Of a stretch of 64,000 nucleotides of DNA, positions 15,691 to 38,003 are shown piece after piece. Source of the stretch: Anaerolineae bacterium (GTDB lineage: Bacteria; Chloroflexota; Anaerolineae; Promineifilales; Promineifilaceae); the NCBI GenBank assembly GCA_019637635.1, contig JAHBVI010000013.1:1-64000 (forward strand). Direction: 5' to 3'. Under the pieces are notes generated by a model. The model was not told the DNA's origin. It saw nothing but the letters and a program-made list of their open reading frames with translations, and did no database searches. The position numbers and the translations under genes were made by a program. Within the stretch, counting starts at the first letter, position 1, and the number at the start of each line of letters is the position of its first letter.

Positions 15691-15732
15691 TCGGATTACG
15701 GATTACGGGTCACGGATTACCGATTACGGATG
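15691..15732. repeat. GGATTAC heptad array at a glycosyltransferase 5' end
   Basis: Six 7-bp units (GGATTAC, CGATTAC, GGGTCAC) immediately upstream of the probable start at 15747. The array is open in the same frame, so it may be translated. Confidence 0.85.
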
Positions 15733-16207
15733 ACGAAGGCAGGCGAATGCAGGCACAACGACGATTTTTAGGCTGGATGTTAGCCGTGCTGTTCACGGCC
15801 GTCACCCTGCGCCTGTTTGCCCTTAGCCATATCCCCCCCGGCCTGACGCACGATGAAGCGGATCATGGGATTACGGCGCTCTCCATTTTGGAAGGAACGC
15901 GCGCTGTGTATTTCACCATTGGGTACGGCCGTGAACCACTCTATGACTACGCAACTGCCCTGCTGATGGTCGGTATTGGCCCCACGTATCTGGCCGGGCG
16001 GCTGACGGCCGTTTACGCCAGCCTGTTGACCATTGCCGCCATGGCCGCCTGGGTGCGGCGGGCGTTTGACTGGCAAACGGCCGTGTTCACCGCCGCCGGA
16101 TTAGCCGTCACTTTTTGGCCGCTCATGGCCGCCCGCCAATCATTACGTTCGATTATGCTGCCGCTGTTTTTTGTGCTGGCTGTCTTATTCTTTTGGCGAG
16201 GCTTAGG

Positions 16208-16341
16208 GAGTGTCAAGTGTCAGGTGTCAGGTGTAAGGTTGCCGAAACCAGACCACGCATCACGCATCACACATTACACCCCACCGCCCACTGCTCACCG
16301 CTCACTGCTTACTGCTTACCGCTCACCGTTCACTGCTTACG
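16208..16341. repeat. In-frame heptad block inside glycosyltransferase 1
   Basis: GTGTCAG units, then TCACGCA units, then degenerate CTCACTG/CTTACCG units. Translated as a linker of about 45 residues (SRITHY, HRSLLTAYRSPFTAY) between two transmembrane helices. Confidence 0.85.
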
Positions 16342-16954
16342 CCTTCGCCGGTCTCTTTCTCGGCTTCACCTTCTACACCTACATTCCGGCGCGCATTTTG
16401 TGGTTGGCGTTTCCATTGACGTTGGTTTATGTGGTGTTGGCGGCACGGCCGTATGTCTCCCAAATGTGGCGTGGTGTGCTGCTGATGCTGGTAGCGGCGG
16501 CGGTTGTGGCCCTGCCGCTGTTTCTGTATCTGGCAGCCAACCCGGAGGCGGAAGTGCGGATTCGGGAGTTGAGTGGGCCGCTCACGGCCGTGACCCAGGG
16601 CAACCTCTCCCCCCTCTGGCAAAACGCCCGTGAAGGAGCCGGTATCCTGTTCTGGCGCGGCGACGATTTCTGGCGCTATAACATTCCGGGACGGCCGTTG
16701 TGGGGGCCGGTGTGGGCATTGTTGTTCGGCGGCGGCTTATTGCTGGCAAGCTGGTGGGCGCTGCGCCCCCTCATCAAACGCCAGCCTGATGCTCATCTGC
16801 GCGGGACGGCCGTGTTCCTGGCGTTGTGTTGGCTGTTTCTCGGCCTGGCGCCGGTATTGGTCACAGGCGCATCGCTCAGCACCACCCAGGCAATGGGCAT
16901 GCAGCCAGTTCTATATCTGTTCCCGGCGCTGGCAATACGCGAAGCAGCCAGAAA

Positions 16955-17035
16955 ATGGGACGCGGATTTTCGCGGATTTTCGCGGATAAATCAAAAAAAA
17001 TCCGCGTTCATCCGCGTTCATCCGCGTTCAATTTC
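16955..17035. repeat. In-frame decamer inverted repeat inside glycosyltransferase 1
   Basis: About three CGCGGATTTT units, a short A-rich turn, then three CATCCGCGTT units, so a perfect hairpin former with period 10. It is translated as DADFRGFSRINQKKSAFIRV and a few following residues. Confidence 0.85.
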
Positions 17036-17891
17036 GAATTTGCTCATCGCTCTTCTGTTTGTGGGCACGGCCGTGATCACCGTTCGTGCCTATTTTGTGA
17101 CCTGGGCCAATGCGCCGGAGGTGCGGGTGCAATATGAGGCAGCGATGACGGCCGTGATGCACTATTTGAATGAGCAGGAGGGGGCCGATGTGGCCATTTC
17201 TACCATCACCCCTGGCCAATACCATACTCCGGCGCTGGCGCAGATGATGTTGACCAATGATCAGGTGAGGCCGCGTTGGTTTGACGGCCGAACCGGCCTG
17301 CTCATCCCCCATGCTCCCAACCCACTGATCATCCTATCCGGTTTTGCGCCATTGTCGGAGGCACTGCGTGGGTATCTGGACACGGCCGTACCCCTGACGA
17401 CCCTGCCCCAACCGGCCACCGATCTGGATCGGCCGTTAACCGTTTATCAGCTAAACCTGGATGAGTGGCAGGCGGCGCATCGGCCGGTTACGGCAATGAA
17501 CCCGCCGCGTACCGTTTGGCGAAGCGACGGCGTTGGTGGGGTATGATGTGGTGGGTACGGCCGTAGCCCCTGGCAGCACTGTACAACTGATCACCTGGTG
17601 GCAGCTAAACGCCTCGGTGGAAGATGTCCGTTTCTTCACCCACCTCACCGAGGCCGATGGTGTTCCTGTGGCTCAGGCCGACCTGCTGGCGGCCCCCGGC
17701 GAAAGCTGGTTAACCGGTGACCTGCTGCTGCAACTACACGAGATTGCCATCCCATCAGACCTGCCGCCCGGCCAATATGCGCTCACCGTCGGCTGGTATA
17801 CCTGCCTGGACGCCGCCTGCCAGCAAACCCAACGCCTGCTCACCCCCACCGCCCAAGACCACTTCACCCTCCAAGAGATTACCATCACCCC

Positions 17892-20078
17892 ATGAACCCC
17901 TCACGTATCACGCATCACGCATCACGCATCACGGATTACCGATTACGGATTACCGATTACGGATTACCTCTGGAAAAAATCCTCATCGTCAGCCTCACCC
18001 TGCTCGCCTTCGCCGCCCGCGTCTGGCAGTTGGCCGACTTCCCCCCCGGCTGGCGGGATGATGAGTTGATTAACTCGCTGGTCATTTCGCAAAAGGTGTT
18101 GGATGGCGACTGGCAGTTGTTTTACCCGGACGCATCCGGCAATGAAGGGTTCTACTTTATTTTGAATGCACCCATGCTGGCGCTGTTTGGCGCTAATTTT
18201 GTGGGACTGCGGCTGTTATCAGTCTTTTGGGGGTTAACGGCCGTGCCCCTCACCTGGCTGTTGGGGCGTAAACTGTTTGGCCCCTGGGTAGGGCTGCTGG
18301 CGGCCGCCGGGTTAGCCATTAGCTTCTGGTCGCTCATGTATTCCCGCTTCGCCCTGCGCCAGATTGTCACACCGACCTTATTATTGTTGGCGTTTTACTT
18401 TTTCTGGAGGGCGTTAACGGGTGTCAGGTATCAAGTGTCAGGTGTCACGCATCACGCATCACGCATCACGGATTACCGATTACGGATTACCGATTACGGA
18501 TTAGCCGGTTTCTGGCTGGCCTTAGGCTTCTACGTCTACTTTGCCGGGCGGGGCGTGCCGTTGATCCTGCTGGCGTTTTGTGGCTATATGGCGATTGTAG
18601 CCTGGCCGCTGCTGCGGCGCGAATGGCGGGGGATTGTGTTCATGTTTGTGGTAACGGCCGTACTCGTCATCCCCCTTTTCATCACCATCCAGCGCCAGCC
18701 GGAGGCGGAAGCGCGGGTTGGCGAATTGGCCGGTCCACTCATTGCCGCCCGCGCCGGCGACTTCAGCCTCATTCAAAAACACGTCGTTGCCACCCTGAGC
18801 ATGTTCCACGCCGACGGCGACGACGAATGGCTCTACAATATCCCCCACCGCCCGGTTTTTGGCTCCCTGGGCGCACTTTTCACGTGGGGCGGCGTTTTCA
18901 TTGCCCTGTATTACACCCTCAGACCCTTGCCGGAATGGGCGAGACAGGCGGGGACAAGGTTACGCGGCAAGCAAAAACCGCTCCCGCCTGTCCCGCCCCT
19001 ACCAATCACGCATCATGCATCACGCATCACGCATCACGGTTCACCGATTACGGATTACCGATTACCCTCTGCTTTTTTGCTCATCTGGTGGCTGGTCGGC
19101 ATTTCGCCCGGTTTTGTCAGCGTACCCCCCGCCAGCCTGGGGCACACCATTATTGCCCTGCCTGCCATCTATATGCTCATGGCGCTGCCAATATGGAGAT
19201 TAGGGATTGGAGATTGGAGATTGAAGAGAGCGTCCAAATCTCCAATCTCTAATCTCCAATCTCTGCTTCTCCCGCTCTTGGCCTTCATTTTGATCGCCAC
19301 CATCGCCATCCGTGATTTGCCTGATTATTTTGAGACGTGGCCGCAGCGGGGGATGGTGCGTTTTTTGTACCGGGCGGATTTGCATGAGTTGGCGGCTCAT
19401 CTGAATGAAAATCCAGGATTGGAAGAGTTTGCCATTGCCAGTTTGTTGGATGGGCCATGGGATAAGGTGGCCTTGCAGATTGACCTGGACGAAGACACGG
19501 CCGTAACCCCCCGCTGGTATCACCCAGAACGGGCGCTCTTTTTGCAGCCTGCCCTCAGCCTGCACTGGTCGCCCGTTGTCCCTTCGCCATATACCGATTG
19601 GCTGGAACCGGCTGCCGGACAGACGACCATCGGCCATTTTTCGCCGGTGCAGACGACCCTGGCCCTGCCGGAGCAAACGCCGGTCTGTTTTGCCAATGGT
19701 CTGTGCAACGTCCACGCCGCCTATGACCCGGCGACGGGAATTTTAGAGTTGGGGTGGCAGGTGGCACGGCCGTTAGACCTGCCCCCGTTCCACCTCATCA
19801 GCAATCCGCCGCCGCCGGGTGTGTATGCCGGGCCGCGCCTGTCGATCTTTGGGCAGTTGTTGGCCGCCGACGGCCGTTACCTCACCGGGGATGATGGCTT
19901 TTGGGTAGACCCCTATACTTTGCAGCCAGGCGACCTCTTTGTGCAGCAGCATCGCCTGACCCTGCCCCCGGACGCCCAACCGGCCACCGTCGCCTTCGGC
20001 CTGTATGATCCGATGACAGGTGAACGGATATTGACGGACGACGGCCGTGACCATATCACGCTAGAGATTGGAGATTAG
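17892..20078 (+). CDS. GT39/ArnT-like membrane glycosyltransferase 2 with four in-frame repeat blocks
   Basis: 728 residues and paralogous to the preceding gene: LADFPPGWRDDELINS carries the external Asp-Asp-Glu loop, followed by about ten helices and a beta-rich C-terminal domain. Heptad arrays are translated at the N-terminus (SRITHHASRITDYRLRITDY), after FFWRAL (about residue 175-205), before SAFLLIWWLVG (about 370-395) and after MALPIWRLG (about 435-460). All lie in predicted loops and keep the frame. Its start overlaps the upstream stop (ATGA). The last residues (LEIGD) and the stop codon are made of GATTGGA repeat. It probably acts in the same glycan pathway as its neighbours. Confidence 0.85.
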   Translation: MNPSRITHHASRITDYRLRITDYGLPLEKILIVSLTLLAFAARVWQLADFPPGWRDDELINSLVISQKVLDGDWQLFYPDASGNEGFYFILNAPMLALFGANFVGLRLLSVFWGLTAVPLTWLLGRKLFGPWVGLLAAAGLAISFWSLMYSRFALRQIVTPTLLLLAFYFFWRALTGVRYQVSGVTHHASRITDYRLRITDYGLAGFWLALGFYVYFAGRGVPLILLAFCGYMAIVAWPLLRREWRGIVFMFVVTAVLVIPLFITIQRQPEAEARVGELAGPLIAARAGDFSLIQKHVVATLSMFHADGDDEWLYNIPHRPVFGSLGALFTWGGVFIALYYTLRPLPEWARQAGTRLRGKQKPLPPVPPLPITHHASRITHHGSPITDYRLPSAFLLIWWLVGISPGFVSVPPASLGHTIIALPAIYMLMALPIWRLGIGDWRLKRASKSPISNLQSLLLPLLAFILIATIAIRDLPDYFETWPQRGMVRFLYRADLHELAAHLNENPGLEEFAIASLLDGPWDKVALQIDLDEDTAVTPRWYHPERALFLQPALSLHWSPVVPSPYTDWLEPAAGQTTIGHFSPVQTTLALPEQTPVCFANGLCNVHAAYDPATGILELGWQVARPLDLPPFHLISNPPPPGVYAGPRLSIFGQLLAADGRYLTGDDGFWVDPYTLQPGDLFVQQHRLTLPPDAQPATVAFGLYDPMTGERILTDDGRDHITLEIGD
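17900..17968. repeat. TCACGCA/GGATTAC heptad array, coding
   Basis: About ten units forming codons 4-26 of glycosyltransferase 2. Confidence 0.92.
18420..18503. repeat. In-frame heptad array at the conserved loop site
   Basis: About twelve units (GTGTCAG, TCACGCA, GGATTAC). The position in the protein matches that of the 16208-16341 block in the paralogue. Confidence 0.92.
19004..19065. repeat. In-frame TCACGCA/GATTACC array
   Basis: About nine units translated as ITHHASRITHHGSPITDYRL in glycosyltransferase 2. Confidence 0.9.
19194..19264. repeat. In-frame GATTGGA hairpin array
   Basis: GATTGGA units, a short spacer and the complementary TCCAATC units. Translated as LGIGDWRLKRASKSPISNLQ. 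Confidence 0.9.
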
Positions 20079-20134
20079 AGATTGGAGATTGACAGAGTCA
20101 CCCCCTCACCCCCTCACCCCCTCACCCCCTCACT
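20062..20134. repeat. GATTGGA heptads plus ACCCCCTC octads across a gene junction
   Basis: The heptads encode the last residues and stop of gene 2 and the TTG start of gene 3. Five ACCCCCTC octads then encode the Pro/Thr/Ser-rich N-terminus of gene 3. Confidence 0.9.
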
Positions 20135-22385
20135 CTGGATCGTGTTGGCCGCGTTCCTGCTGCTGGCAGTGGCGGGCAGCGTGATCAATCCGCTCCATGA
20201 GGCCACAGACGAACTACGTCATTACCGTTTTGTGCAGCACATCGTCCAGTTGCACCGGCTGCCGGTGCAGGGGGAAATGCCCTGCCAGGCACAGGGGCAT
20301 CACCCGCCGCTTTTTTATGCGCTGGGGGCGCTGACTACGTTCTGGATTGAGACGGGGCGGGAGGTGTGCGCCGAGCCGCCGCTCAACCCGTTCTGGCAAT
20401 ACCGCTACTGGGAAGTGGGGCGGGACAATAAAAACCTGTATCTGCATGGCGCGGATGAGGCGTTCCCCTGGCATGGCGAGGCGTTGGCGGCGCATATTGT
20501 CCGTTTTGTCAATATTCTCATTGGCGCAGGGACAGTTGTGCTGACCTGGCTGCTGGCGCGGGTGATCTGGCCGGCACGGCCGTACCTGGCCCTCGGTTCC
20601 GTCGCTTTTGTGGCCTTCAACCCCATGTTTGTGTTCATGTCCGGAGCGATTAACAATGATGTGATCGCGGCGTTGAGCGGCACGGCCGTACTCTATGCCT
20701 GTGTCGTGCTGGTCAAATCCCCCACCGGGCTGAGCCGCCGTTGGGGAGTGGTGTTGGGCGGGTTATACGCGCTGGCGCTGATGAGCAAATTTAGCCTGGC
20801 AGTCGTCGTAGTGTTGATTGCCGTCTCCGTAACCTATGTGGCCTGGCGCGATAAATCGTGGCGCTTGTGGCTGGAGGTGGCGCTGATTGCGGGGCTGGTC
20901 ACGGCCGTGTTGGCCGGCTGGTGGTTTGCACGCAACCAACTGCTCTACGGCGAACCGACCGGCGTGGAACGGCTGACCGAACTGTGGGGGGTGCGCAATC
21001 CGGCGGATAGTTGGGGATTAGCCATTCACGAACTGCCCTACACCTGGACGAGCCTGTGGGGGCGGTTTGGCTACGGCCAGATTCCGCTGCCGGAATGGAT
21101 GTACCTGGGGTTGCGCTGGCTGGTGGGTCTGGGTCTGGCGGGGCTGGCTGTACCTTTCCTGCGCCGCCAGTGGGCGGAACTGCGCCCGGCAGCCATGCCG
21201 CTGTTCCTGCTGGCGTTGGATGTGGCCCTGCTCTTTGCCGTCTTGTTCAACTATCTGCTCATCAGCCCGGCGGGGGCGATGGGCCGCTTCTTTTTCCCGG
21301 CGCTGCCGGCGCTGGCGATACTGACGTTTTATGGGTGGAGCCGGTGGGGGGGTTGGGTATGGGGAGATCGGAGATTGGAGATTGGAGATTCACCAATCTC
21401 CAATCTCCGATCTCCAATCTCCATTTTTGCCTGGATCATGAATGCACTCATGGCTTTGCTCACGGCCGTCGCCCTCTTTGGCTTTTTGCGCCCGGCCTAT
21501 GCCCGGCCGCCGGAATTTGCGGCCAATGCCCGTGTGCCCAACCCCACTAATGCCCAATTTGACGCCTTCGTCAACCTGCGCGGCTACGAACTGAGCGCCC
21601 AAACCGTGCAGCCGGGGGATGAATTGGTGGTGAAACTGTATTGGGAAGTGACCGGCCAACCGCCGGGCAACTACCTGCTCTTTGCCCATCTGATCAATGG
21701 TGACGACCTGATGATCGCCCAGCGGGACACACATCCTGGCCTGGGCAACTTCCCCAGCAGCCAGTGGCGGGTGGGCGACCGCTTTGTGGATACGGTACGC
21801 CTGCACATGCCAGAAACGATGATCGCCCCCGACGAAGCCACTCTGAGCATTGGCCTCTATGCCCCAGGCGCTTACCGGCTGGGCATCACCGCCGCTGACG
21901 GAACAGGGATTGGAGATGCCCTGCCATTAGGCGCCATAAATTTACAGCCAGCGCCCGGAGATTTGCCCAATCCCTTGAACCAGAACTTGGATAACAAGCT
22001 GCGGCTGGTGGGGTATGAATATAACAATCGGGTGCTGCGCCCAGGGGATGTATTGGCTGTAACGCTGTATTGGCAGGCGGCGGCCCCCCTTGATCGTGAT
22101 TATGAAGTGGCGGTGGGTGTGTGTGATGATCCCTGCCCGGATTGGATGGGCGCAAGAGTCACGGCCGTGACCCCCATCACCCCTGCCGCTTCTACCCTAC
22201 AGCCACAACAGGTTATCTCGAATACCGTATTACTCTCATTACCTGGAAATCTGCCACCCGGCGTTTACTTAATTCACGTCGCCTTGATTGATCCCCTGAC
22301 AAAAGAACCACAAAATGTGTTGGCCGCCGATGGACACATCCTGGATGATCGCTTATTATTAGCCCAGATACGGATTGTTGAATAA
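20082..22385 (+). CDS. GT39-like membrane glycosyltransferase 3
   Basis: 767 residues, with the hydrophobic core starting at LWIVLAAFLLLAVAGSVINP. The first external loop has INPLHEATDELRHYRFV with the acidic pair, and about ten helices follow. From about residue 500 a beta-rich extracytoplasmic domain begins (FVNLRGYELSAQTVQPGDEL), like those of the neighbouring paralogues. The only in-frame start before the first helix is the repeat-derived TTG at 20082. A GATTGGA hairpin (21361-21423) is translated between two helices. Four bases separate it from gene 2, so they form one transcription unit. Confidence 0.85.
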   Translation: MEIDRVTPSPPHPLTPSLWIVLAAFLLLAVAGSVINPLHEATDELRHYRFVQHIVQLHRLPVQGEMPCQAQGHHPPLFYALGALTTFWIETGREVCAEPPLNPFWQYRYWEVGRDNKNLYLHGADEAFPWHGEALAAHIVRFVNILIGAGTVVLTWLLARVIWPARPYLALGSVAFVAFNPMFVFMSGAINNDVIAALSGTAVLYACVVLVKSPTGLSRRWGVVLGGLYALALMSKFSLAVVVVLIAVSVTYVAWRDKSWRLWLEVALIAGLVTAVLAGWWFARNQLLYGEPTGVERLTELWGVRNPADSWGLAIHELPYTWTSLWGRFGYGQIPLPEWMYLGLRWLVGLGLAGLAVPFLRRQWAELRPAAMPLFLLALDVALLFAVLFNYLLISPAGAMGRFFFPALPALAILTFYGWSRWGGWVWGDRRLEIGDSPISNLRSPISIFAWIMNALMALLTAVALFGFLRPAYARPPEFAANARVPNPTNAQFDAFVNLRGYELSAQTVQPGDELVVKLYWEVTGQPPGNYLLFAHLINGDDLMIAQRDTHPGLGNFPSSQWRVGDRFVDTVRLHMPETMIAPDEATLSIGLYAPGAYRLGITAADGTGIGDALPLGAINLQPAPGDLPNPLNQNLDNKLRLVGYEYNNRVLRPGDVLAVTLYWQAAAPLDRDYEVAVGVCDDPCPDWMGARVTAVTPITPAASTLQPQQVISNTVLLSLPGNLPPGVYLIHVALIDPLTKEPQNVLAADGHILDDRLLLAQIRIVE
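21361..21423. repeat. In-frame GATTGGA hairpin array
   Basis: GGAGATT units followed by AATCTCC units inside glycosyltransferase 3. Translated as GDRRLEIGDSPISNLRSPIS. Confidence 0.9.
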
Positions 22386-32422: not shown

Positions 32423-33061
32423 TCACCAAATGCGCCCCGTCGCCACCAGCATGGTGAAGGCGGCAATGAACCAGTGGATGAAAAAGGGGTAGACGAACGA
32501 TTGGGTTTGCCAGGCGATGAAACCAAAACCGACGCCGCCAAAGAGGGTGGTGAACGTTTCCATTTGCGGTTTGCCCAGGTGCATAAAGGCAAAAGGGATG
32601 GCTTGCAGCCAGATAGCGGCGCCCGGCCCAAAGGCGCGGGCAAAGGCAAACAGCATAAACCCCCGCCAGACAAATTCCCAGCCAAACAGGTCTACGCCGG
32701 TGTAATAAATGATGGGCAGCACCCCTTTGGGGGCGCGTAGCTGGTAATAGGCCACCATGCTCGGCTGCCGGGCCACGACAATCAGAATGACGGCCATGAC
32801 CAGGCAGACGCCGGCCGTCCAGGCCAGCCCCAGCCGCCAGTTGCCCCACCGAAAGCCGTAATCGCTCATTGGCTCCCGAAACAGCAGGGTAATGGTCAGC
32901 GCCGGAATGATGAAGTACCAGATCACCCGGTCATATGCTTTGACGTTGGTAATCTTGTGGCCATACCAGTCCAACATAGGGATGATGGTGCAAATGATGA
33001 TGACCAGCACAATGTGCCAGTCAAAGGTGATGCCGCCAATGGTCACGGTGTGTTTCCTCAT
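32423..33061 (-). CDS. CPBP-family intramembrane metalloprotease-like protein
   Basis: 212 residues with six or seven TM helices. The conserved CPBP motifs are present in slightly altered form: WEFVWRGF (the EExxxR motif reduced to E-F-x-x-R), FAFMHLGKP (FxxxH) and FFIHWFIA. Members are Rce1-like glutamic/metallo endopeptidases, often in bacteriocin self-immunity or membrane-protein processing. It precedes the methyltransferase gene on the same strand with a small gap holding repeat DNA. Confidence 0.85.
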   Translation of the reverse strand: MRKHTVTIGGITFDWHIVLVIIICTIIPMLDWYGHKITNVKAYDRVIWYFIIPALTITLLFREPMSDYGFRWGNWRLGLAWTAGVCLVMAVILIVVARQPSMVAYYQLRAPKGVLPIIYYTGVDLFGWEFVWRGFMLFAFARAFGPGAAIWLQAIPFAFMHLGKPQMETFTTLFGGVGFGFIAWQTQSFVYPFFIHWFIAAFTMLVATGRIW

Positions 33062-33070
33062 ATGCCTGGA

Positions 33071-33132
33071 AGAGATTGGAGATTAGAGATTGGAGATTGA
33101 CTGAATCTCTCATCTCCAATCTCCAATCTCCC
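33071..33132. repeat. GATTGGA heptad hairpin
   Basis: GAGATTGGAGATT-type units followed by AATCTCC units, perfectly placed between the cupin stop and the CPBP start. A candidate transcription-ending hairpin. Confidence 0.9.
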
Positions 33133-33453
33133 TTAAGGGGCGGGCGCAATACCCACCAGCAGGGTCAAACGGCCGTCGCCTACATTCTCGACCCCATGCG
33201 CCAATCCGGCCGGACACCAGACCAGTTCCCCGGCAGCAGCTTCTACGTGTGAGTCGCCCAGCTGGAAACGGCCGTGTCCCGCCGCCACGAAATAAAATTT
33301 ATCCTGGTCATCATGGGTGTGGGCGCTTTGCACCTGGCCCGGTTCCAGGCAGTTCAGCCCCACCATCAGGGCATCACCGCGAAAAAGCGTCGTCTTGTAA
33401 AACTTCGCCGGGTTCACCCCTTCATGGTCAGCAATCTTCTTCACATAGGACAT
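33133..33453 (-). CDS. Small cupin-domain protein
   Basis: 106 residues forming one cupin barrel. Motif 1 is QSAHTHDDQDKFYFVAAGHG with two His and a Glu-to-Asp change, and motif 2 is GELVWCPAGLAHGVEN. It probably binds a metal; the ligand or reaction is unknown. ATG 33453 has AAGGTG 6-7 nt upstream and is preferred over the TTG at 33468. A possible -10 (TATAAT, minus strand 33618-33613) lies upstream. Confidence 0.85.
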   Translation of the reverse strand: MSYVKKIADHEGVNPAKFYKTTLFRGDALMVGLNCLEPGQVQSAHTHDDQDKFYFVAAGHGRFQLGDSHVEAAAGELVWCPAGLAHGVENVGDGRLTLLVGIAPAP

Positions 33454-33643: not shown

Positions 33644-35908
33644 TTACTCAATGACCTCTACCCACCCCGCCAGGTAAACATCATGCGGCTGCCGTTCGCC
33701 GCCCACAAAGAGCGGCTGGCGCTGCCCGGTAGCGGCGTCATACATGCCAATCCAGACCTGGTAACGGCCGTGCGGTAAATCTGCCGGCATTATCAGCCGG
33801 TATTGATCGTCAATCACCTCGCCCGCCGCCCAGACACGGGTGGGGTACTGCCCGGCAAGGGGCTGGTTATCGCCCGTCGCCAGCGGCGGCTGGCCCGCTT
33901 CGGCCAGATGCACCAGCGTGGTCAAATTCATGCCCGGCGGGGCTAACGCCTGCCAGGTTATGTCAACCTGGACGGTATCACCGGGGCGCGCTATTTGCGG
34001 GCTGAGGGCTACGACCGTAACCACCATCCCGTCCCCCACCTGCGCCAGCGGTGCGCTGCTTTCCGGCCAATCGGCCGGGATCACTTTCACTTCGGCCACG
34101 TCCGTGCCCGTCGCCCCATCCGCCAATCGCACAAAAAGACGGGCTAATACAGGGGTCACGGCCGTGCCGTCCAGGCGAATGCCGATGCGGTCGGCCACCA
34201 GTGCGCCGGGAGGCCACAAATTGGCCGGGTATTTGCCCTGCCCGTGATAGCTGTGGTAATTGCCCAGCAGCGCCAGGTCACGGCCAAACAGTTCCGCCAC
34301 CAGTTCCGGTGGCCTGGCTGCAACCGGGTCGGCGCGCCAGTAGAGGGTAAACCAGACCGGGGCGCCGGGCACGGCCGTGTCCGTTTCCATCGCCACGCCC
34401 ACCAGTTTCAACCCTTCGCCCACATCTAAATCCAGGGGTACGGCCGTTGCCGGTAATTGGGCAAGCAGCGGTGGCAGCGCATACGCCGGGCGGATGACAA
34501 AAAAAGCGCAGTACAGCGTCGTCAAAAAGGCCAGGCCGACGACCAGCGCATCCACACCCCGCCAGCGCCAGCGCGTCAGGCCAAAGGCCAACGCCAGCGC
34601 CAGGGGCACAATTGCCGGGAAGAGCAGCCGCCCCTGCGCCGCCGGGGTGCGCAGCATAAACATCAGCAATCCGGCGTAGACCAGCGCCAGCCAGAGGAAG
34701 AGCAGGAAGCCGGGGAACCAGGGGGCGGAGAGATTAGAGATTAGAGATTGGAGATTCACCCAATCTCCAATCTCTAATCTCCAATCTCTATGGCTTTGCC
34801 TGCTGCGCCACCCGACCCATACGCCCAGCACGGCCGTGCCCACCATGCCCGCCCACACTGCATACACCCAGGCCGGGGCCAGCAGGTTGAACCAGCCAAA
34901 GACGGCAAACAGCGAGCGCACCAGCCCGCCCGTTTCGCCCAAGACCTGCCACAGGTTGTAGCCCCGGTCGCCTTCGGCCAGGCGAATGAACGGTTCGGTG
35001 GCGGTGAAATCGCCATACAACTGCTGGTTGCGCAGCCACAACCAACCGGCAATGAGCAGGGTGGGCAAGACGACAAACACGGCCGTTTGCCATCCCCACT
35101 TCCAGACATCCGATTTTTTAAAAAAATCGGATGTCTTAACTGCGCGCAAAAAGAGAAAACCGACGGCATAGGCCAGCAGCAGCAGCCCGGCATTTTTGGT
35201 CAGCGCCGCCAGACCACAGGTGATGCCCACCAGCAGCAGGCGCGGCCGTGTCACCGGATGAAACCATAGCCAGAGCAACTGCCACAAGGCCAGCGAAGCC
35301 AGCAAAATGATGAGCGGGTCGTTGCTGATGCTGGCGTGGACGAAGTTGAATTGGGGCAGGAAGGCGGTCACGGCCGTAGCCAGCAGCGCCGGGCGGGCGT
35401 CATCCGGCCAGAGCAAACGGCCGCAGCCATAAATGCACACCAGCGTGCCTACCCCCATCAACGCCGACACCACCCGCAGCAAATGGGCGGCCAGCGCCAC
35501 CCCCTGCCAGGGCCACGCTTCTTGGGGCGTATGAACGACCCGGTTCACATTGGACAGCCGGGCCGCGTCACCGGCATAAAAGAAGGGGTTCAGCCACACC
35601 TGGTCACGGGCGTTGGTAGTAGAGATGGGCAGGATAACGGCCGTGCCCAACAGATAATACAGCGGCGGCTGCGCCGCTTCCTGCGCCGTCCAGGGGTCAA
35701 ATGGCTCGTCCACAAAGGGCAGCGCCCGATTATCCTTCACATACTGCACCGTGAAATAGTGCCAATGTTCATCCGGCGCTTCAAACAGTGGGTTGACCAC
35801 GCTGTAAACCAGCGTCACCAACAGGTAGGCGATGAGAATAAGAGCAAGAGGTAATCGGTAATTGGTAATCGGTGATCGGTGATCGGTGATTGGTGCTTGC
35901 TCATTCAT
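33644..35908 (-). CDS. GT39-like membrane glycosyltransferase 4
   Basis: 754 residues, same architecture as the 20082 gene: VVNPLFEAPDEHWHYF loop with acidic residues, about ten TM helices, then a beta-rich exported domain (ARPGDTVQVDITWQALAPPG). The N-terminus (ITDHRSPITNYRLP) and an internal loop (RDWRLEIGDWVNLQSLISNL) are translated heptad repeats. The stop codon falls in a CCAATTAC octad. It stands apart from the other glycosyltransferases. Confidence 0.85.
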   Translation of the reverse strand: MNEQAPITDHRSPITNYRLPLALILIAYLLVTLVYSVVNPLFEAPDEHWHYFTVQYVKDNRALPFVDEPFDPWTAQEAAQPPLYYLLGTAVILPISTTNARDQVWLNPFFYAGDAARLSNVNRVVHTPQEAWPWQGVALAAHLLRVVSALMGVGTLVCIYGCGRLLWPDDARPALLATAVTAFLPQFNFVHASISNDPLIILLASLALWQLLWLWFHPVTRPRLLLVGITCGLAALTKNAGLLLLAYAVGFLFLRAVKTSDFFKKSDVWKWGWQTAVFVVLPTLLIAGWLWLRNQQLYGDFTATEPFIRLAEGDRGYNLWQVLGETGGLVRSLFAVFGWFNLLAPAWVYAVWAGMVGTAVLGVWVGWRSRQSHRDWRLEIGDWVNLQSLISNLSAPWFPGFLLFLWLALVYAGLLMFMLRTPAAQGRLLFPAIVPLALALAFGLTRWRWRGVDALVVGLAFLTTLYCAFFVIRPAYALPPLLAQLPATAVPLDLDVGEGLKLVGVAMETDTAVPGAPVWFTLYWRADPVAARPPELVAELFGRDLALLGNYHSYHGQGKYPANLWPPGALVADRIGIRLDGTAVTPVLARLFVRLADGATGTDVAEVKVIPADWPESSAPLAQVGDGMVVTVVALSPQIARPGDTVQVDITWQALAPPGMNLTTLVHLAEAGQPPLATGDNQPLAGQYPTRVWAAGEVIDDQYRLIMPADLPHGRYQVWIGMYDAATGQRQPLFVGGERQPHDVYLAGWVEVIE
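34728..34790. repeat. In-frame GATTGGA hairpin array
   Basis: Heptads and their complement inside glycosyltransferase 4, located between TM helices just as in the 20082 gene. Confidence 0.9.
35848..35895. repeat. TAATCGG/TGATCGG heptad array, coding
   Basis: Encodes the N-terminus of glycosyltransferase 4. A looser continuation of similar units lies upstream to about 35970. Confidence 0.88.
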
Positions 35909-37068: not shown

Positions 37069-37860
37069 ATGACAACGTTAACACCCGAACAGATACACGA
37101 AGAAGTGAAGGCGCGCTACGGCCGTCTCGCCAGTGAATTCAAAGTAGAACTGCTGCCGACCGAATCGGCCAGTTGTTGCGGCGACACGGTGAGTGATGGC
37201 TACTGCGGTGCTGAGCTTTATGACGTAGACGTCAGTGAACTGCCCACCGATGTGACCGGTATGTCCTTAGGCTGTGGCGACCCCATTGCCATTGCCGCCT
37301 TGCAGCCAGGGCAAACGGTGCTGGATTTAGGCTCCGGCGGCGGCATTGATTGTTTCCTGGCGGCGCAGCGGGTAGGGCCAACAGGCCACGTCATTGGCGT
37401 AGACATGACCGAAGCGATGCTGGAAAAAGCCAACCGTAACAAAGAGAAGATGGGGGCAGACAATGTAGAGTTCCGCTATGGGCACATTGAAAAGTTGCCG
37501 GTAGCCTCAAACAGTGTGGATGTCATCCTCTCTAACTGTGTGATCAATCTCAGCCCGGATAAGGCGGCCGTTTTTCAGGAAGCATTCCGGGTACTCAAAT
37601 CGGGCGGCCAGGTGGCCGTCTCGGATATGGTGACGCTGGGTCGGTTTACGCCGGAAGAACGGGCCGATATGTCGCGTTGGGCCGGCTGCATCACCGGCGC
37701 GGAAGATGTGGCCGATTATGCGGCCTGGATGCGGGCTGCCGGCTTCTCGCAAATTTCCATCCGGGATAAGGCTCACCCAGATGTAGAGCTGGCAGACGCG
37801 CCGCGTGCGGAAGGGGCGGCCCGGATTTTTAGCGCGCGCATCACGGCCGTGAAAGCCTGA
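37069..37860 (+). CDS. arsM: Arsenite S-adenosylmethionine methyltransferase
   Basis: 263 residues. SAM motif LDLGSGGGIDCFLAAQRVG; conserved arsenic-binding cysteines in ASCCGD, SNCVINLSPDK and AGCITGA, as in characterised ArsM. It methylates As(III) to mono-, di- and trimethyl species, which are volatile or exported. GGAGG lies 5 nt before ATG 37069, so the 4-residue longer start at 37057 is unlikely. Co-directional with arsR, with an operator between them. Confidence 0.95.
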   Translation: MTTLTPEQIHEEVKARYGRLASEFKVELLPTESASCCGDTVSDGYCGAELYDVDVSELPTDVTGMSLGCGDPIAIAALQPGQTVLDLGSGGGIDCFLAAQRVGPTGHVIGVDMTEAMLEKANRNKEKMGADNVEFRYGHIEKLPVASNSVDVILSNCVINLSPDKAAVFQEAFRVLKSGGQVAVSDMVTLGRFTPEERADMSRWAGCITGAEDVADYAAWMRAAGFSQISIRDKAHPDVELADAPRAEGAARIFSARITAVKA

Positions 37861-37916
37861 TACGTGATGCGTGACGAGTGATGCGTGAGAAAATCACTCG
37901 TCACTCGTCACGTATC
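37861..37916. repeat. TGATGCG/TCACTCG heptad hairpin
   Basis: TACGTGATGCGTGACGAGTG units and their complement, forming a hairpin immediately after the arsM stop codon. Confidence 0.9.
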
Positions 37917-38003
37917 GTGCTACTCCCCACGAAATCCTACCGGGCCTCTTTTTTTTCCAGTACCAAAGTCCGGTTTAATACGGCCGTAGCCTCCCGCACA
38001 ATG

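Follow-up and report, generated by a model that had tools for sequence, protein, structure and literature searches.

Heptad repeat arrays kept in frame at shared loops of paralogous GT-C-type membrane glycosyltransferases from an Anaerolineae genome

In a 64,000-nucleotide stretch of an Anaerolineae bacterium (assembly GCA_019637635.1, contig JAHBVI010000013.1, positions 1 to 64,000; hereafter the window), tandem arrays of short units, mostly 7 bases long, were recognized inside a cluster of membrane protein genes. The cluster includes two neighboring paralogues encoding predicted glycosyltransferases (GT) of the GT-C type, GT1 (transmembrane part at 15747..17546) and GT2 (17892..20078), and an open reading frame (ORF) for a third membrane protein, GT3 (20082..22385), all on the forward strand. 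The source assembly is a draft of 7.49 Mb in 299 contigs with an estimated contamination of about 8%, and the window corresponds to its contig 35. Gene calling relied on a simple script based on codon bias, and gene starts and some gene-edge calls are approximate. The genome of the window, designated as G000, was the reference for comparisons with five congeners.

GT1 and GT2 share about 30-35% identity, and their alignment spans a loop that carries arrays in both (loop A). GT1 relatives are present in all 52 of the 52 genomes of the family searched. The similarity of GT2 to PMT (PF02366) is above the gathering threshold (score 23.6 versus 22.7), and the weak similarity of GT1 to PMT_2 (PF13231) is below it (15.8 versus 26.1). 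The AlphaFold models of both proteins show a mean predicted local distance difference test (pLDDT) score of 84. Foldseek with the GT2 model found AglB, OST, and ArnT in PDB with e-values from 1.5e-8 to 5e-7, and PMT and ALG12 were matched too. Based on this model, GT2 has a GT-C fold of the PMT/ArnT/AglB type, followed by a C-terminal beta domain, and its role as a transferase is a prediction. In the first external loop, an acidic motif, D57-E58 in GT2 and D63-E64 in GT1, is invariant across the alignments. The GT1 frame is open from 15666 with its start ATG at 15747, and its C-terminal (Wzt_C-like) domain lies out of frame at 17533..17895 on the same strand. The two parts are separated by a frameshift around 17510, outside the arrays, where this genome alone has one extra base in comparison with three congeners. 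GT1 orthologues encode the C-terminal domain in a single frame of about 700 residues in total, and the frameshift may be an assembly error or a recent pseudogenization.

The loop A array of GT1 is composed of a G-rich left part of GTGTCAG heptads (16209..16239) and a C-rich right part, in which ATCACGC is followed by CACTGCT/TTACCGC heptads (16254..16340, or to 16333 in one delimitation). In GT2, GTGTCAG, ATCACGC, and GATTACC heptads are arranged in one register at 18420..18503. These arrays follow FFWRGL in GT1 and FFWRAL in GT2 and precede AGLFLGFTFYTYIPA and AGFWLALGFYVYFAG, respectively; they contain no in-frame stop, and SRITDYRLRITDYG is found in GT2. A sequence-only reading of this region had placed the two arrays in frame after the same helix end. 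The positions were confirmed, and the paralogues align there. Its view of a single shared loop holds for loop A, but the pattern is wider and extends to other homologous loops, the N-termini, the next gene, and the whole genome. The polarity of inverted pairs and the in-place replacement of units, both described below, also escaped that reading.

Two more arrays of GT2, in the N-terminal tail (17901..17968) and in loop B (19005..19066), are composed of ATCACGC/GATTACC heptads, and its loop C contains an inverted pair, (GGAGATT)n/(AATCTCC)n, at 19198..19263. Loop C of GT1 contains an inverted 10-mer array, CGCGGATTTT/ATCCGCGTTC (16961..17030). Inverted pairs of the (GGAGATT)n/(AATCTCC)n kind are also found inside GT3 (21363..21423) and, on the reverse strand, within another membrane protein gene (34729..34788 in the gene at 33644-35908). 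The palindromes at 19198-19263, 21363-21423, and 34729-34788 are all in frame within ORFs. The junction of GT2 and GT3 is occupied by octads, AGAGATTGGAGATT followed by TCACCCCC (20064..20133). At the extreme 5' end of GT1, a heptad array of the CGGATTA type (15692..15735) is probably a 5' leader and not coding, because the start is the downstream ATG and the array differs by an out-of-frame -14 in the congener G002. Except for the pair at 34729..34788, these arrays are on the forward strand. At the GT2/GT3 junction, G002 alone has a gene of about 1 kb similar to DNA methyltransferases (TDPAYAGMN motif, locus L073), which replaces the array opposite window positions 20062-20140.

Arrays with periods of 5-12 from 27 GT1 and 10 GT2 homologues, belonging to many genera, were placed on alignments. 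Internal arrays, counted by hand, fall into the three loops A, B, and C in 39 of 40 cases for the GT1 homologues and in 31 of 32 for the GT2 homologues (70 of 72 together), while these loops represent only about a sixth of the protein. In GT1 and GT2, respectively, loop A corresponds to residues 182-226 and 177-204, loop B to 360-382 and 345-392, and loop C to 428-460 and 434-459. The arrays belong to at least six unit families, mostly with a period of 7 or 8. Loop A of this genus contains GTGTCAG with CACTGCT or GATTACC. Elsewhere, the same loop contains GGAGATT with AATCTCC (in several genera), GTGGCAA, TTCACTT, CATCACC, or G-rich octads.

The history of these arrays is patchy. No array is detectable in loop A of 13 of the 27 GT1 homologues, and GT2 of the congener G001 has no detectable array and a bare loop of 16 residues, RAWASGRPRMTTYALA. 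At least five presence/absence changes and at least nine changes of array kind are seen on the GT1 tree. The sequence-only reading had proposed, as one of two options, an array inherited from before the GT1/GT2 duplication and diverged thereafter. In favor of it, GT1 and GT2 do bear arrays at matching loops, both here and in some other genera. Against this inheritance stand the array-free half of the GT1 homologues and the array-free GT2 of G001, the lineage-specific unit families, and the large divergence already present within the genus. An ancestral array was therefore rejected on the basis of array-free homologues and unit turnover, and it is considered very improbable. Equally long, unrelated loops in array-free homologues had been raised as a point against insertion at this loop, and the outcome is mixed. 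Array-free loops are shorter, with a median of 26 versus 35 residues (p = 0.0015), and some of them, RDWRLETGHQSPI in L037 for example, resemble arrays in decay; the two length distributions nevertheless overlap.

Among close relatives, the arrays were replaced in place. The sites are common to G000, G002, G003, and G004 with flanks 83-87% identical to G000, and the identity of the arrays themselves to G000 is 72% in G002 and 67% in G004. The pair at 19198-19263, GGAGATT/AATCTCC in G000 and G003, is an octad pair of AATTACCC in G002, and the G002 pair at 21363-21423 is built on ATATCCCC. The 10-mer array at 16961-17030 is represented in G004 by a pair of ACAGATT/AATCTGTG. Outside genes, the intergenic site 33061-33135 has GGAGATT/AATCTCC here and a different, non-tandem hairpin, CGTAGAGATGTTACCATGCAACGTCTCTACG, at the same place in G002 (L073/L074).

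The length of coding arrays is constrained by the reading frame. When the five congeners are compared, every one of the 28 non-zero differences in coding-array length within the genus is a multiple of 3. At arrays outside coding sequence or on gene edges, the proportion is 9 of 23. The coding tally excludes the leader array at 15692. As 7 cannot be divided by 3, heptads are read in all three frames within every 21 bases; a unit free of stops thus remains so whatever the frame, and three added units correspond to seven codons. Such frame-safe growth by three units, expected from the sequence alone, was indeed observed, though it is not the sole route. Steps that are multiples of 21 (-21, -42, and +63) account for 8 of the 28 changes, including -21, -21, and +63 in the N-terminal tail of GT2 and -21 and +63 in its loop B. 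The ratio of nonsynonymous to synonymous substitution rates (dN/dS) is 0.09-0.19 outside the arrays, indicating purifying selection, versus 0.41-0.76 inside, indicating relaxed constraint, with an uncertain alignment where arrays were replaced.

The repeats could instead be functional, tuning enzyme assembly or serving as phase-variation switches. Enzymes for surface sugars are classic contingency loci, and the quick growth and shrinkage of the loops would fit such a role. However, frame-shifting length changes, as in phase-variation repeats, were not found among the 28 between-species changes in coding arrays, the arrays are relaxed, and unrelated peptides occupy the same site. There is only a small chance that the loops have such a function.

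Within one genome, coding arrays have unit families in common with intergenic arrays. A scan by self-matching at lags from 4 to 13, covering 462 kb of the 7.5-Mb genome, found 107 arrays with a period of 7, versus none in a randomized sequence (first-order Markov, dinucleotide-based, one replicate). Lag 8 gave 22 arrays, and every other lag gave three or fewer. By location, 44 of the 107 arrays are intergenic, 26 are at gene edges, and 37 are intragenic, though about 87% of the bases are coding; the 70 arrays between genes or at their edges represent an intergenic excess and a strong depletion from coding DNA. The commonest units, GGAGATT, ACGGATT, and GATTACC, contain no GGG; the G-quadruplex-forming GGG tracts of the Xanthomonas and Nostoc subset were not found in them. 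Genes with internal arrays are enriched in membrane proteins: 12 of 17 have at least four predicted membrane segments, versus 58 of 369 genes (Fisher p = 1.6e-6, uncorrected for gene length). Public genomes that share these repeat units include many Anaerolineae and cyanobacteria.

Three further repeat features were observed in this genome. Large membrane protein genes form a second cluster at L069-L070 (C225:38000-51000), and nearly each of them has at least one internal array. At 37859-37917 of the window lies an inverted heptad pair of about 58 bp, GTGATGCGTGACGAG/CACTCGTCACGTATC, and the congeners contain dozens of close copies of it with identities up to 98%. The palindromic octamer ACGGCCGT occurs at 149 sites in the 64-kb window versus 1.4 expected, like the highly iterated palindrome HIP1, and the host is probably not a cyanobacterium.

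It is very likely that the array loops are tolerant sites for a genome-wide array-making process. The data show such a process, with unit families specific to each genome, producing arrays of 7- or 8-base units, many of them convergent G-rich/C-rich pairs, and selection clearing them from genes outside tolerant places and preserving the frame. Intragenic arrays would persist only where the protein is indifferent, namely the N-terminal tail and three flexible loops of GT-C-type transferases, and only when their length is a multiple of three and free of stops. The array peptide would be carried along, probably unselected for its sequence and with no function of its own, while the surrounding enzyme is under selection. 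The other option of the sequence-only reading, an insertion hotspot tolerated by the fold, agrees well with unrelated families in the same three loops of many genera, with the in-frame length changes, and with relaxed dN/dS confined to arrays. The structural models, suggested earlier for locating the loop, point in the same direction, as they show low-confidence loops between helices at the array sites. These segments are residues 1-23, 180-189, 370-387, and 441-446 of GT2 and residues 1-19 and 199-217 of GT1.

Several observations weigh against this interpretation. The low-confidence segments 638-646 of GT2 and 606-626 of GT1 carry no arrays, and loop C of GT1 is not below a pLDDT of 50. Homologues share ancestry, so arrays within a genus are not independent events. 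The peptides ITDYG, HASRITHH, and RLEIGDW recur, and the loops with arrays are longer, which leaves room for a structural role. The excess of membrane proteins is not corrected for the greater room that long multi-loop proteins offer to arrays. The N-terminal tail and loops A, B, and C are presumed to be cytoplasmic because the catalytic acidic motif follows the first helix, and translation through the arrays is deduced from the conservation of the frame.

The array-making process might be the transposition of a mobile palindromic element, such as a miniature inverted-repeat transposable element, a repetitive extragenic palindrome, or an element of the Rickettsia palindromic type, that inserts in-frame copies. 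Inverted elements are dispersed both within and between genes, and Rickettsia provides a precedent (PMC10969869). The unit, period, arm length, and spacer differ among the copies, however, and units are swapped at fixed sites. An element with a fixed sequence was rejected, with no conserved full-length sequence among copies or orthologous sites. No clean empty site with target duplication was found against the five congeners, whose array-free counterparts are diverged. A mobile element is an improbable source.

The polarity of the inverted pairs is fixed. Of 51 pairs found in 14 scanned genomes and representing around 20 unit types, 49 begin with the G-rich arm; some of the 51 are orthologous between congeners and hence not fully independent. 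The two exceptions are units with weak G/C asymmetry. Loci of Cyanobacteria, Xanthomonadales, Acidobacteria, Phycisphaerae (Planctomycetota), and Chloroflexota, an uneven sample collected with one unit pattern, contain at least 14 pairs, and all 14 examined show the same order. In total, it is seen in 63 of 65 pairs across phyla. Among 249 genomes of the class, a search with exact patterns revealed 99 forward matches of the G-rich-first order in 13 genomes, overlapping ones included, versus 2 matches of the opposite order in one genome, G172. In G172 (L187, L188), AATCTCC precedes GGAGATT, and G-rich-first pairs are present as well. The arm order is not an effect of the gene strand or the replication strand, because the palindrome is identical on both strands. 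This polarity points to extension of the G-rich strand first.

The growth of arrays by slippage, together with either fold-back or two-ended break repair to make the paired arms, would be the process behind the array loops. No single mechanism of origin is held with more than tentative confidence. In the break-repair version, the 3' strands flanking a break or gap would each gain G-rich repeats, by addition or slippage, before the ends are joined, generating 5'-(G-rich)n-spacer-(C-rich)m-3'. The arms would share a unit family, as products of one event, and have independent orders of variants. The polarity described above supports this version. Arms within a pair are no more alike than those between pairs of the same family (0.792 versus 0.793, p = 0.52; longest match p = 0.04), the spacers are short and variable, and the arms are often unequal. 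The unit order speaks against simple mirror copying, and later slippage could mask or erase a mirror order. The enzyme and the breaks themselves are hypothetical, and a clean empty site with junctions was not found. Break repair of this kind is possible but doubtful. Less probable still, the G-rich-first order could be the footprint of an unrecognized DNA-end reaction, in which a polymerase or repair system adds species-preferred G-rich units of 7-8 bases to both 3' ends before joining. If true, its outcome would be like telomere-type repeat addition and would repeatedly give membrane proteins new in-frame loops.

In the fold-back version, the tandem array would come from ordinary replication slippage, and the inverted arm would be created and repaired when the nascent strand snaps back and switches template, as in the quasipalindrome mechanism. 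The arms at 19198 and 21363 change in concert, with a complementarity of 18-23 within a species versus 6-9.5 between G002 and G000. The G-rich-first order is unexplained by snap-back alone, and the order of units in one arm does not mirror that in the other. To our knowledge, quasipalindrome template switching is not known to build tandem heptads or to impose this order. Template switching is reported to homogenize inverted-repeat arms in other organisms (PMC8604942, PMC7202029). This version is a plausible candidate, still short of an even chance.

If the loops are indeed tolerant sites of a genome-wide process, a non-coding repeat process feeds protein evolution: tolerant loops are refilled in frame, and peptides change wholesale while the enzyme is unchanged. 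It also offers an annotation rule for recurrent junk-like peptides such as RLEIGDW/ISNLQSP, HASRITHH, ITDYG, and SLLTAYR. Any mechanism proposed for bacterial heptad repeats faces a sharp and testable constraint in the G-rich-first polarity, which is fixed across phyla.

Heptad repeats, convergent pairs in Xanthomonas, and in-frame palindromes in Rickettsia are already known separately. Nothing specific on heptad repeats in Chloroflexota was found in the literature searched, nor any report combining in-frame refilling of loops, concerted in-place unit replacement, and cross-phylum polarity. The Rickettsia palindromic elements (Ogata et al. 2000, 2002, as outlined in PMC10969869) form families with conserved sequences and a length of about 150 bp. 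They are similar to the present arrays in being palindromic DNA in frame within genes where the fold allows. Here, in contrast, there is no conserved element but only short tandem units that vary by site and species. The Beggiatoaceae TAACTGA heptamers are also dispersed direct heptad repeats, some of them inside ORFs; they consist of one unit, are mainly upstream of start codons, and include one reported inverted pair (PMC4679880). Quasipalindrome template switching (PMC7202029, PMC8604942) predicts that inverted-repeat arms change together, as do the arms here.

A close likeness is to the heptanucleotide repeats that include the short tandemly repeated repetitive (STRR) sequences of heterocystous cyanobacteria, GGGGAYT in Nostoc, and GGGAATC in Xanthomonas, the last with 70 and 75 convergent pairs in two species (Rehm 2015, PMC4692102). 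Long simple sequence repeats (LSSRs) were surveyed by Mrazek 2007, here as summarized in PMC4679880. Like LSSRs and STRRs, the present arrays are dispersed 7-base repeats that are mostly intergenic, and the Xanthomonas convergent pairs show the same G-rich-first polarity. Unlike them, most units here are without GGG, many families and octads coexist, and the arrays are in frame in homologous loops and replaced between sister species. Because most units lack GGG, the arrays belong to the heptanucleotide simple sequence repeats in the broad sense, and not to the quadruplex-forming subset.

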